Shown here: piece by piece, positions 26,249 through 30,837 of the stretch
Layout of the letters: each line of letters starts with the position of its first letter
Position numbering within the stretch: position 1 is the stretch's first letter
From: Hypoxylon rubiginosum
Lineage: Eukaryota > Ascomycota > Sordariomycetes > Xylariales > Hypoxylaceae
Length of the DNA stretch: 64,000 nt
Direction: 5' to 3'
Assembly (NCBI GenBank): GCA_902806565.1
Contig: CADCXA010000036.1
Location: forward strand, 248,001 to 312,000
Notes under the pieces: model-generated
Told to the model about the DNA's origin: nothing
The model's database searches: none
Seen by the model: the letters and a program-made list of their open reading frames with translations, nothing else
Made by a program: the position numbers and the translations under genes

Positions 26249-26755
26249 TCATAGTATTTTCACGTCTTGCTCTTCAGATACTTCCTCCCAGCTTTTGGTA
26301 TCTGGCTTGGCAACGATCATCAGCCCGGCTCTCTTCATCAACCTGACTCTCCTCTCTGGTGTAGTACTCGTTGGATCAGTGCCGTCGCCGACGTTTTGGA
26401 GTATGAGTGCGATTCGACGAGTGATCTTGAGAGCGTACAAATCAACGTTCTCTGCGATCCTGCGATCGAGAAAGTAGCGTATCCTTATTTGCCCGTTTTG
26501 GCCGCGAATTTTGACCTTTATGTCATCTCTCCACCTAACCAAGGCTCCGTTGACGAGTTCAAGCTGCACCAATGAACTCCGTATGATGATATAGCCGCCG
26601 CTTTCGACTATACCTCTTGGACCCGTTTTGACATGATGATCAAGAGCTTTGGCAGACACATCTGCGTTCGAAGGCCAGACGTGCTTGACTGCTGGGGGAT
26701 TACTGGCCCAAGACCAAGATGGCACACTGTTATCTAAAGGGAACGTAGCCTGGAA
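26249..26755 (-). pseudogene. C-terminal fragment of a HET-domain protein
   Basis: About 168 codons open on the minus strand from after a stop at 26756-26758 to TGA at 26249. PSWSWASNP near the start is the hallmark that follows the HET domain in heterokaryon-incompatibility proteins. The downstream pattern (GGYIIIRSSLVQLELVNG, then a C-terminal GLMIVAKP and W-containing tail) matches the usual C-terminal half. The HET domain itself is absent, and the upstream sequence belongs to the NLR remnant in another frame. So it is read as a relic or truncated gene, possibly fused by rearrangement to the neighbouring NLR. Confidence 0.65.
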
Positions 26756-28475
26756 TTACCGACGCCCTTCCTATTAGAACACCAATGTTCTAGGGGGTAA
26801 TAACTCGGAGTTCGGCTTATCGAATCCACATAGAGAATGTATGCGAGAGAAGACCGAGCAAGTATTGCGTTCCCTTCGGACCTTTCTGTAGAGAACTTTT
26901 TAGCGTGGGGGGAGAGATTTGTTGTATTCTGCAGAAATTCGACGACACTCGAATGTTCGAATCGGAGAACTGCCTTGTTACGCCGGGTTGATTCATAGGT
27001 GTCATCGTCGATAGCGAATATGTCGCTCCCCTCCGAATCTGAATCCATTGCAATTAGGAATGTGCACTGTTCGAGAAAACTTGGCCACTGGTTTAAACAG
27101 TCGTCCCAGTCAAAATACGGCTCATCTGCTCTGGTAGCGACCGTTTGTCGAAGCTCCTCAAACCTAAGCGGCCGGGCAGCGTATAGAAGCCAACACAACA
27201 AGGTTCTGAGGTGTGCAATGGCAGCACCGTCTTGAATATTATCGAGAATACGCTCATAGATCTTGGTAAGACTCTCGAAATCTTTTGACTTCGTTCCAAG
27301 TACTACAACTCTCAATTCCCCTCAATAAGCCATCAGCCCATCTGAATCTATAAGGGATGGTTAGCTCATAATACACAAATTGCCAGCGAAATCTTACGAG
27401 CCATCGCAATTTGCCATTATATAGCTGATGATCTCATTGTTCTTATCATCATTCCATTGGCGACTTAGGTTTAGCTGATTGATATGATTCTCTATATCAT
27501 TATTGATAATCATGGGGCTGATATCTATTTTGTACCTCTTCAAGTCCGTCAGAGTTTCCTCGGTCTGTAGGGATTGGGTTGTGTTAGTGCTAGTAAGAAT
27601 GCGAATATCACAATCTTTCTGCTCGCAGAGCATCCTGATAACTTTACAGGTCTCGAGTTGTTCTGTGCATTCATCTAGAGCGTCAATGATGATATAGACA
27701 CGTTTAGGTACTTTTATCAGGTCTCGAAGCAGCTGTTCGTGGTCGACGGGCTGACTACCTTCTCCTGCTTGCGTATAAAACGCTTTCGCACTAGATCGCG
27801 TTGCGTTGTTGTATACCGCAAGTTGATACGCTAGGTTCCGAACAAGAGTTCCGCGTGTCTGAGATTGTGAATCCGTTATTGTGAAGAAATGGTAGAGCAA
27901 GACATAATCAGGAGACTCTTTGCAAAAGGAGCGCAATGGGTCGATGGCAGATGAGCTTTTGATATGTCAGTCGGTGCTTATTGTATTCCACTAGCTGGGA
28001 ATCTCGACTAACCATAGAACCGTCTTGCCGCATCCCGCTACGTAATTGATTAGTTTAATACGGAGCCATGCTCTATCAGAGGGTACAGATATTCAGAATA
28101 TAATGCGTACTAACATTTTCCATGTAGCCACAACAGGGAACGTGACTCCCTTTCTTGTTGTGGGTGAGACTTCCAGCTAGAAAAAACCTCTCCGTCGAGG
28201 AACCATAGACCAGTATCTGCAGTTCTTTTACTTTGCCACGGATTTTGGAAAATGTGCTGTAAAAAGACTGGTTCCGAGCCCAGAATCCATTTGGCTACCT
28301 GTTCCATTGTTGGTTCCGTTGCTTGCGACGCTGAAGCAGTTAGCTACCTACCTGGGTATGAGGTAGAGCACCACGCAATATAATACTAACTCTGATAGAT
28401 GTTCTCATATTGAATGAGAACCTCGGTAATATGGTTGTTTGAAAATCCATGGTGCGACCCATATGTTGAAGCCAT
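26734..28475 (-). pseudogene. NACHT NTPase (fungal NLR) with short N-terminal amyloid-like motif; frameshifted and lacking repeats
   Basis: STAND/NACHT receptor of the fungal non-self recognition type. Exons read as 28475-28391, 28330-28115, 28037-28013, 27955-27398 and 27347 onward. The first exon gives a short leader whose residues about 12-29 resemble the repeats of the neighbouring HeLo protein. Residues 29-97 are the family pre-NACHT segment with GLWFLDGEVFSSWK and LLWLHGK. The P-loop SGCGKTVL is carried mostly by a 25 nt micro-exon. Walker B is IIIDALDEC (about residue 200). After FRWADG the frame must slip by one base near a CCCC run at 27318-27321 to reach the winged-helix part (IYERILDNIQDG, WLLYAARPLRFEELR, RFEHSSVVEFLQ). 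It then stops at 26734 without WD40, TPR or ankyrin repeats. It is probably a damaged sensor unless the slip is a sequencing error. Confidence 0.75.
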
Positions 28476-28492
28476 GATGTTGAGGTGAAGTC

Positions 28493-28786
28493 TGTGACAA
28501 GGGTCTGATATAAGAGGCTTGGAATAACTTCAATTTCAATAATAATATTTATGGCTCCTAACGTCCTTGGTTTCCCACTCCTTTGAGGGGAAACAGGCCA
28601 CCTATTTATGCTAGAATGGTTGATGCCTAATAGCCACCTAACCGCCGCCTTAAGCGCTTGCTACGTGGTGTTGGGGCGAGGGTTCCATCCCAATATATCT
28701 CCTGCCAACCACCTTGAGCCAACGCACTTATTCTTCGTATTCAATCTTTTGCCAAGGTCTCTGACTATGGGATTCCTTATTCAGGT
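28493..28786 (+). repeat. direct repeat copy A in the NLR/HeLo promoter
   Basis: Matches copy B at 29328-29572. The two ends are well conserved: a left block with TATAAGAG and CTTGGAATA, and a right block with GCCAAG and GGGATT-CTTATTCAGGT containing an ATG. The middle is more diverged. The right block here reads ATG (28767) and six codons before a GTATCC. Confidence 0.7.
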
Positions 28787-29327
28787 ATCCAATAATGGGT
28801 CCGTGTGACAAAGTCCTCGGAGGCTTACAGTCAAGACACTTGAGAGTAGGTACTTTTCCCCAGATTTTTGTTAGATCGGAATTTTCTTCTTCTATATCCT
28901 AGTATACCAAATAAGCGTAATAGCTTGGTAGGGGTCTTGAGTACTTCAAGGTTAGACATTCGCGTTGCTGAGTAGGTACCTAACCTAGGTAGGTTCGTGT
29001 TCGTCCTATGTTTCAACCTCTTGATATCAATCAAGAAGAAGAGGTAAATGGCGAGGGGGATAGGTTCTTGGTCAGCCACGTGCGGGGATAGGTATTGACC
29101 GGTGTAGAGCTGAATACCTAGTAATGAGGGCAAATTGTTCGGGCGTCACCGAGCCAATGGTCGCTTGAAATGGCCTTGGTTTTGCACATTGGGCTTCGTA
29201 CCTCAGGATACCGACCAATCATGTAAGAAGATGACACTACACTCGATGAACGGATGATATGTGCCCGTATCCGATCCGACGGCCAAGAGCTGCGTCAGGC
29301 TCTGCTTAAGTTTCGAAAGCCAGGCTT

Positions 29328-29572
29328 TGTGATAAGGGTTTAGTATAAGAGACTTGGAATAGCTTCAAACTCCATATAATAATCTTTATGGTTCCTAAGG
29401 TCCTTGATTCCTTCCAATTTAGACAGGAATCTAAGGAAGCGCCCTCTGATGTGTTGTTGGTCCTACAGTTTCAATCCGAGTTAATTCCCACCATTCAACT
29501 TCAACCAACACACACATTTATCTAAAGGATACGCGCTGCCAAGATCTGTGACCATGGGATTACTTATTCAGG
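29328..29572 (+). repeat. direct repeat copy B in the NLR/HeLo promoter
   Basis: Partner of copy A, in the same orientation. Its right block has ATG (29554) plus five further codons, then GTGAGA, a good splice donor. It could be a relic first exon of a duplicated gene, but no acceptor joins it in frame to the HeLo coding sequence. Confidence 0.7.
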
Positions 29573-29736
29573 TGAGACACTCGGATCGAGCCGTGTAACA
29601 GGCTTTACTGTCGATTTCTCTTTATTTAATTCCGCCCTTCCCCCCAACCAAAGGACGGGTAACGCAGCTAGTCGCTAAATATAAGAGCACATATACATAC
29701 GAACTCCCATGCTGATCATTGGCTAGTTGCTTCAAA

Positions 29737-30555
29737 ATGGAGGTAGCTGGACTAATCGTTGGCGGGGTGAGCCTCGCCGGCATCTTCACAGCTTGTGTCG
29801 ACTGTTTCGAATACGTCCAATTCGGTCGCCAGTTCGGCAGAAACTACCAGACGGCAATCCTGAAACTCGACCTTATTAAACTTCGGTTATGTCGCTGGGC
29901 TGACGCCGTGAGCACACCTAGCAAACATGCCTCAGTTGGATCTGAAGCTGAGGCAGCTAAAGTGAAAGAAGTCTTAGGACAGATCATTTATCTTTTTGAA
30001 GAGACGGAGAGAACATCTAAAAAGTTCAAGACCTCGGAGGGCCGAACCGATACACACAGTGTAGCCGACCTTGACGCAGATATTGAGTCAATCCACTTGA
30101 AGATGAAGAATCTTGCACTCAAGCGCCAGAAACGTAGCAGCTTTACGCCGAAAGCATCGTGGGCGCTCTTCGAAGAGAAATACTTCAATCGGTTGATAGA
30201 GGACGTCGACCCTCTAGTCAGAGACTTGGTGGAGATGTTTCCAGCAGCTAAGGAAGAGCAGCAGAAGCTCAGCGTCGAAGAGGCGCAGCAGCTTCAGAAT
30301 GAGCAAGGCATCGCGACCTTACAGGACGCGAACGACGGCCAAGACGATCTTCTCCGGGAATCTATCGCGCAGGCCCTGGCCAGTAAAGGCAGACACCGGT
30401 TCGTGGGGAACGTCACCAAAGGCGACATACGGGTAACGTTCGGGAACACATTCGATGGCATGCTACCTATCACTACGGGAGCTGGGAGCTTGTATAAGAA
30501 TAACGAAGCATCGGGAAATGCGATAGTGCACTACGGCAATCATTATTATGGATAG
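29737..30555 (+). CDS. HeLo-domain HET-S-like protein with two C-terminal amyloid-type repeats
   Basis: Predicted pore-forming cell-death effector of the HET-S/HeLo family, acting at membranes after activation. Single exon, 272 residues from ATG 29737. The first about 220 residues are a HeLo domain: a glycine-spaced hydrophobic N-terminal helix (AGLIVGGVSLAGIF), then ACVDCFEYVQFGRQFGRNY, LDLIKLRLCRWADAV and KASWALFEEKYFNRLIEDVD. The tail carries two 18-residue repeats, GNVTKGDIRVTFGNTFDG (224-241) and NNEASGNAIVHYGNHYYG (255-272), spaced by 13 residues. Their order, size and asparagine/aromatic pattern match a HET-s-type prion-forming domain. It is divergent from a damaged NLR bearing a related motif. 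The frame is intact. Activity is inferred from family. Confidence 0.88.
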   Translation: MEVAGLIVGGVSLAGIFTACVDCFEYVQFGRQFGRNYQTAILKLDLIKLRLCRWADAVSTPSKHASVGSEAEAAKVKEVLGQIIYLFEETERTSKKFKTSEGRTDTHSVADLDADIESIHLKMKNLALKRQKRSSFTPKASWALFEEKYFNRLIEDVDPLVRDLVEMFPAAKEEQQKLSVEEAQQLQNEQGIATLQDANDGQDDLLRESIAQALASKGRHRFVGNVTKGDIRVTFGNTFDGMLPITTGAGSLYKNNEASGNAIVHYGNHYYG

Positions 30556-30837
30556 GGGTCAATCTTCTAGTCACCGGTATTTACCAGCAAAATCGCTGAT
30601 GCTACACAATCATTTCTAACTGGCTCTTCACCCTCTCTTATAACCTCCGAACAGCGGAGCGTGCGTGTTAATTTCTCATCTCTTCATATCCTTTCTAATA
30701 CTATATACCTGTCACCCAAAGAGAAATGCAAGGCGCTGTGAGCCCGAGTGAAGTCAAGTAGCCACGGGTGTAAACTAGGGGTGTAATGAAGAGAGAACGT
30801 AGACAGCTCGTGCGTATGGCTCAGGCTTAAAGATACA

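Follow-up and report, generated by a model that had tools for sequence, protein, structure and literature searches.

Two neighbouring genes on opposite strands of a fungal contig raise the question whether they form an amyloid-signalling pair of the HET-S/NWD2 kind, and whether such a pair could still signal. The assembly searched comprises 48.3 Mb in 70 contigs, and the window, the whole stretch of 64,000 nucleotides which was analysed, corresponds to C36:248001-312000. The + strand possesses a HET-S-like HeLo gene with a two-repeat amyloid-type tail, and its neighbour on the - strand is a NOD-like receptor (NLR) with a diverged N-terminal motif of the same kind. On sequence comparison the two are a real pair by descent, since two NLR relatives have the aligned motif and three of four share a contig size with the HeLo relative of the same species. 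The locus is very probably a decayed copy of this amyloid-signalling pair. A first-pass annotation had described a head-to-head HET-S/NWD2-like pair joined by HET-s-related motifs. The kinship is upheld by the motif of the relatives and by their probable linkage; a sound system is not, as the NLR is frame-shifted and without HET and the effector tail is shortened.

According to passages of PMC4344463 and PMC3321046, HET-S/NWD2 of Podospora anserina likewise consists of a HeLo effector with two tail repeats and a neighbouring NACHT NLR with one N-terminal motif. Unlike that pair, the tail is not recognised by PF11558 here, the NLR relatives have HET instead of WD repeats behind NACHT, the window NLR is broken and the effector tail is shortened.

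HeLo effector and its tail

The effector gene and its parts are as follows.
29737..30555, + strand, HeLo cell-death effector of 272 residues in a single exon; HeLo domain at residues 5-192 (PF14479, E 3.8e-44)
30391..30462, + strand, tail repeat r1, RHRFVGNVTKGDIRVTFGNTFDGM; predicted strands 221-223, 226-235 and 238-240
30481..30552, + strand, tail repeat r2, AGSLYKNNEASGNAIVHYGNHYYG; predicted strands 252-254, 257-266 and 269-271
30553..30570, + strand, early stop TAG (30553-30555) followed in frame by GSIF and a stop, resembling the end of many relatives

The protein is shorter than 310 residues, and its HeLo domain was recovered by profile, by sequence and by fold. Its solved relatives are the HeLo domains of HET-s/HET-S (2wvn, E 2.4e-37; 2wvo, E 4.7e-37; all three, including 2wvq, between E 2.4e-37 and 1.6e-34). 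Foldseek with the predicted full-length model placed 2wvn at E 5.5e-13, and all four rows at E <= 0.001 were HET-s/HET-S HeLo structures; no HET-s amyloid entry stood among the best 50 of the 324 rows.

The C-terminal end is composed of two imperfect repeats, each with an arch glycine. Numbering the positions back from this glycine as 19, the core positions V16, Y/F18, G19 and N20 are retained in both. A protein search with the HeLo protein returned the window's own protein and 45 relatives. Aligned on the arch glycine, both repeats are present in 42 of these, among them four distant ones; a further relative has just repeat 1, and the last two lack both. In most, the repeat follows the pattern [HS]-x-[FY]-x-x-N-x-[AVI]-x5-[VA]-x-[YF]-G-[DN]. 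Score counts and profiles of the repeats exclude seven relatives with shifted or distant repeats. On this basis, among 37 r1 repeats that of the window scores lowest against the profile (25.5; median 39.6), and r2 is ordinary, ranking 27th of 36 from the bottom.

The first-pass annotation had proposed structure prediction of the tail as a two-rung β-solenoid. The full-length model has a mean predicted local distance difference test score (pLDDT) of 80.3 and a predicted template modelling score of 0.77, the four other models averaging 63-76 in pLDDT. Its tail is predicted as two matching sets of three strands at 221-240 and 252-271, with a pLDDT of 78-86 by blocks and 65 in the linker. The tail modelled by itself was poor (mean pLDDT 55.5). 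The two-rung reading is thus supported by the full-length prediction, not proven.

The stop codon comes about five codons early, and the C-terminal loop which follows r2 falls behind it. The stop-GSIF combination occurs only once across the six frames of the 64-kb window. When the genome was searched with a relative's tail, the alignment ran through the stop to residue 59 of 60 with 52% identity. In the alanine scan of P. anserina, as reported in passages of PMC4055769, the arch glycine and two aromatic residues of the loop gave the strongest losses. As a side observation, P0033, a HeLo relative without the loop, scores second lowest for r1 and lowest for r2, and loop loss and motif divergence may go together.

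The NLR gene, its relatives and its lesions

The NLR gene lies on the opposite strand.
28391..28475, - strand, exon 1, encoding the N-terminal motif r0, FSNNHITEVLIQYENIYQ; it aligns to P0168 and P0170, is four residues shorter than in P0168 and has lost the arch glycine
28331..28390, - strand, predicted intron 1, GTTAGT..CTTCAG, 60 nucleotides; joins r0 and NACHT in one reading frame as in P0168
27254..28330, - strand, exons 2-5 (28330-28115, 28037-28013, 27955-27398, 27347-27254); NACHT with P-loop; 325 residues in all
26734..27276, - strand, further part of the NLR (ESLTKIYERIL...), read in a different frame; net shift relative to relatives
26252..26722, - strand, remnant of the HET module, consisting of its C-terminal extension (PSWSWAS...) without the HET domain; P0167 residues 942-1102, 50% identity

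All the introns are of the GT..AG type (60, 77, 57 and 50 nucleotides) and the spliced model yields the P-loop GKSGCGKT. The domain profiles matched are NPHP3_N (E 1.3e-33) and NACHT (E 2.1e-8). The upstream frame terminates at TGA 27256-27254 after 325 residues. From FRWA to ESLT the window has 58 nucleotides where 72 are expected from P0168, giving a net frame shift near 27276.

A first NLR search gave distant NLRs only (best 28% identity), the close relatives exceeding its length range. A longer query identified four close relatives with 44-49% identity over 67-99% of the query, namely P0167 of Rhypophila decipiens, P0168 of Rhypophila sp. PSN 637, P0169 of Podospora fimiseda and P0170 of Monosporascus sp. 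5C6A. P0167 matches the window with its residues 87-491 as far as 26755, and again with residues 942-1102, starting at 26746. The stretch 492-941 in between, about 450 residues which include its PF06985 match (675-785), is absent from the window. The open reading frame 26252-26755 was considered as a separate gene and rejected, as its match is to the last part of this NLR's HET module. No repeat family was found in the window NLR pieces by domain profile search. With the frame shift and the loss of HET, the window NLR does not encode a complete NACHT part followed by a C-terminal sensor.

The contig size is identical for the NLR and the conspecific HeLo relative in three of the four species (P0167 and P0004, 179458; P0168 and P0006, 122132; P0169 and P0009, 156162). 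Because the listed sizes are identical, the two genes are probably on one contig in these species. The Monosporascus NLR and HeLo relatives are on contigs of different size (381888 and 54742). In the database gene models the motif is truncated in P0167 and absent from P0169, and the P-loop stretch is absent from P0170; these gaps seem to be annotation faults. Since the motif seems partly or wholly lost from the P0167 and P0169 models, receptors of this kind may escape motif surveys based on protein sets.

Weighing a decayed pair against its rivals

The three 18-residue stretches named in the first-pass annotation are encoded where it placed them and share N at position 2, I/V at 10, F/Y at 12, N at 14 and F/Y at 16. 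Their gap-free register differs from the one which the relatives support, in which the window motif has four residues fewer than P0168 and a glutamic acid in place of the arch glycine. Its expectation that the three would match each other better than shuffled sequence was not confirmed inside the window, where most tests were not significant.

These tests are the first of several results which weigh against a decayed pair joined by r0. In Smith-Waterman comparison of the NLR N-terminus with the window repeats, 155 of 2000 shuffles reached the score for r1 and 264 of 2000 for r2. With profile hidden Markov models built from the repeats of relatives (36 r1, 35 r2, and joint), the window score was reached by 39, 109 and 149 of 500 shuffles, and by 10, 48 and 61 of 187 other NLR N-termini, for r1, r2 and joint respectively. 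Position-specific profiles, in the same order, gave 100, 546 and 288 of 3000 shuffles over the first 45 residues without gaps, and 236, 1144 and 734 of 3000 over the first 100. Allowing one gap, the numbers were 1, 222 and 21 of 1000 for 45 residues and 1, 452 and 48 of 1000 for 100 residues. The r1 value with one gap, the lone good one, is to be discounted because several profiles and settings were tried. The candidate r0 was therefore rejected as significant from the window alone. When N-termini were scanned against all HeLo repeats and the best score was taken, P0170 reached 52, P0168 44 and the window 36, which four of 183 control NLR N-termini exceed (top 48, P0158; next 42). P0158 itself is a NACHT-WD protein of Ilyonectria destructans whose residues 1-30 resemble a HET-s-related motif by eye.

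These numbers are what favours a chance resemblance, with the HeLo protein and the NLR as unrelated neighbours. The relatives make this very unlikely. With the alignment to P0168 running from the first methionine, the score of the window N-terminus was reached by none of 5000 shuffles for P0168 and by 209 of 5000 for P0170; its scores are 44 and 33, and the best of the 183 control N-termini scored 30. The r0 motifs of the relatives fit effector repeats better than that of the window does, P0168 with the repeats of its conspecific P0006 (2 of 2000 shuffles for r1, 21 of 2000 for r2) and with those of P0002 (0 and 5 of 2000), and P0170 with the repeats of its conspecific P0040 (102 and 12 of 2000). 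The equal contig sizes in three species also stand against chance. Judged through its relatives, the window r0 is a genuine motif by descent. It is probably also part of the NLR, as the first-pass annotation had it. Translation starting solely at 28307 is unlikely because in P0168 and P0170, too, the aligned motif precedes the conserved WIxGSEP stretch; the spacing is 13-15 residues in the two relatives and 15 in the window.

On the effector side, the HeLo branch ranks just fifth in length among 41, so that no decay is visible for the effector taken as a whole; the HeLo domain is still open over its full length. Tails without the loop are found elsewhere too (P0033, P0039, P0043), and the loop of Chaetothyriales relatives has no aromatic residue. 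The loss of the loop need not be fatal because of these two observations. Passages of PMC4055769 also report the C-terminal loop as missing from a fraction of homologues, in species which hold another loop-bearing copy; in this genome the effector and tail searches showed no further copy. Lastly, the locus is known from a single assembly, in which the stop as well as the frame shift may stem from sequencing errors.

If they were assembly or sequencing errors, the pair would be sound except for HET. This is hardly probable given separate lesions in both genes, which include the loss of about 450 codons; a sequencing error accounts less easily for the missing HET domain than for the stop or the frame shift.

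The working of an intact pair can be outlined by analogy with P. anserina, on which the templating and cell death steps are modelled. In the relatives, a receptor with N-terminal r0, NACHT and then HET would assemble on sensing a cue. The clustered r0 motifs would fold as a β-solenoid seed and convert the two-repeat HeLo tail, and the converted tail would free the HeLo domain to damage the cell's own membrane. Here the NLR could give nothing longer than an r0-NACHT stub of 325 residues, its r0 damaged, and the effector would be without its C-terminal loop, so that the chain would be broken at the receptor, at r0 and at the effector loop. Because of these defects, signalling through the pair is probably lost in this genome.

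A pair that still works is an unlikely alternative; some of the rivals weighed in this paper are compatible with one another. In such a pair the stub would oligomerise and its r0 would seed the tail, the shortened tail and the lost HET being tolerated. Exons 1-5 splice cleanly in the model with the P-loop retained, the HeLo frame is open up to the last five codons, the core positions of r1 and r2 are kept and loop-less tails exist elsewhere. Set against these are an r0 without the arch glycine and four residues, an r1 which is the most diverged of 37, a post-NACHT part out of frame, and a lost loop which is functionally critical in P. anserina. Under the favoured reading of a decayed copy, the window represents a natural lesion set in such a pair, in which the arch glycine and the C-terminal loop are sites singled out by the P. 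anserina mutants, according to passages of PMC4055769.

Motif class, the HET domain behind NACHT and other genome matches

The first-pass annotation had suggested a distinct subfamily of HET-s-related amyloid motifs (HRAM), which the comparison did not bear out. From sequence, the motifs probably belong to HRAM3, the likeliest class because of H at position 3 of r1 and the Cladophialophora members of the family. H3 of repeat 1 is found in the window, in 36/36 profile relatives and in 39 of the 43 relatives with an extracted repeat 1; in repeat 2 the position is S in the window and H in 15, S in 19 and N in one of 35 relatives. Position 8 of HRAMs is generally hydrophobic. Passages of PMC4518210 assign H at position 3 to HRAM3; the HRAM3 example in passages of PMC5485727 is a pair from Cladophialophora psammophila, and two other Cladophialophora species occur in the HeLo homologue set. 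Further likenesses to HRAM3 as described in these sources are the arch glycine at 19, hydrophobic residues at 5, 16 and 18, and two repeats in a HeLo protein; position 10 is mostly A, V or I. Unlike HRAM3, position 8 is N here and r2 of the window has S at position 3. With N at position 8, and with text descriptions of HRAM3 as the standard of comparison, the assignment to this subclass is tentative. A HRAM3-like NLR12 motif is linked to single copies in PNP_UDP effectors in passages of PMC9815663.

An intact and distinct subfamily is accordingly improbable. It would agree with N8 of repeat 1 in all 36 profile relatives, with the extra residues of the relatives' r0 compared with the repeats (three in P0168) and with the lack of a match to PF11558 (HRAM1) at E <= 1 in the window. 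This absence says little because PF11558 matched only 38 of 155 HRAM proteins (passages of PMC4518210). H3 and the Cladophialophora members point to HRAM3, and the gene damage contradicts an intact system.

PF06985 was found after NACHT, in the C-terminal half, in all four NLR relatives (E 2.8e-16, 4e-15, 3.1e-21 and 2.3e-19), and the linker between NACHT and HET holds conserved stretches. Sensor repeats are the usual occupant of the region after NACHT in fungal NLRs. HET stands before NACHT in all 13 other HET-bearing NLRs among the matches listed (the best 120 of 134 and the best 120 of 217 NLR matches), and an N-terminal HET is described for fungal NLRs in passages of PMC4986451, PMC9815663 and PMC10197012. 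HET-E/HET-D type NLRs (HET-NACHT-WD) similarly combine HET and NACHT in one receptor (passages of PMC9815663 and PMC4986451). Unlike in the relatives, where r0 is N-terminal and HET lies behind NACHT, their HET is an N-terminal output domain. Sordariales NLRs with C-terminal non-canonical domains, for example PKinase as a possible decoy, resemble the relatives in carrying an extra domain at the usual place of the repeats (passages of PMC12258605); in these passages a C-terminal HET is not mentioned. Limited literature searches, which covered main texts, found no printed description of a C-terminal HET in fungal NACHT proteins, and on this limited evidence the arrangement is unexpected and apparently undescribed.

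The fusion r0-NACHT-HET in the relatives is drawn from four gene models. If it is real, it would bring two fungal death modules, amyloid/HeLo and HET, into one receptor system and would suggest that HET domains, besides acting, may themselves be what is sensed. Tentatively, the receptor of the HeLo pair in several Sordariomycetes may be r0-NACHT-HET, with a TIR-like HET at the place of the sensor repeats. Such a HET could guard against attacks on HET immunity or serve as bait for them, or it could add a second death output to that of HeLo; the loss of the HET module here may have accompanied the decay of the whole switch. Bait, guard and second output are roles that we infer. Since the cues which activate fungal NLRs are called an open question in passages of PMC10197012, a non-repeat sensor candidate would be testable.

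Genome searches with effector, tail and NLR queries found neither a second HRAM effector nor an intact cognate NLR. The effector query matched the window and one HeLo relative at 35%. A relative's tail as query matched the window only, and another query gave the window and one weak match (E 0.7). For the NLR query 37 matches were listed; four are pieces of the window itself, and none of the others exceeds 35% identity. Among 52 genome matches listed to P0167, those outside the window have at most 45% identity, the closest being short HET stretches. The single other match of the effector query, C6:2095289-2095900, shows by eye a HeLo part followed by an NTPase part with P-loop in one long open frame, and appears from its sequence to be a HeLo-NLR fusion. 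A NACHT match is also present at C36:316839-317552, about 4.8 kb past the right end of the window.

Much of the intergenic region, near both start codons, is occupied by a dispersed repeat, about 320 bp long and present twice.
28493..28810, + strand, dispersed repeat copy 1; starts 18 bp from the NLR start codon
29328..29600, + strand, dispersed repeat copy 2; ends 137 bp from the HeLo start codon

Copy 1 has at least nine other genome matches with 76-84% identity. The repeats at 28.5-29.6 kb were considered as a feature of this pair alone and rejected, as they are copies of one dispersed repeat. A further copy, at C55:984965-985254, is separated by about 450 bp from a NACHT match at C55:985699-986352, and their relative orientation is that seen in the window.

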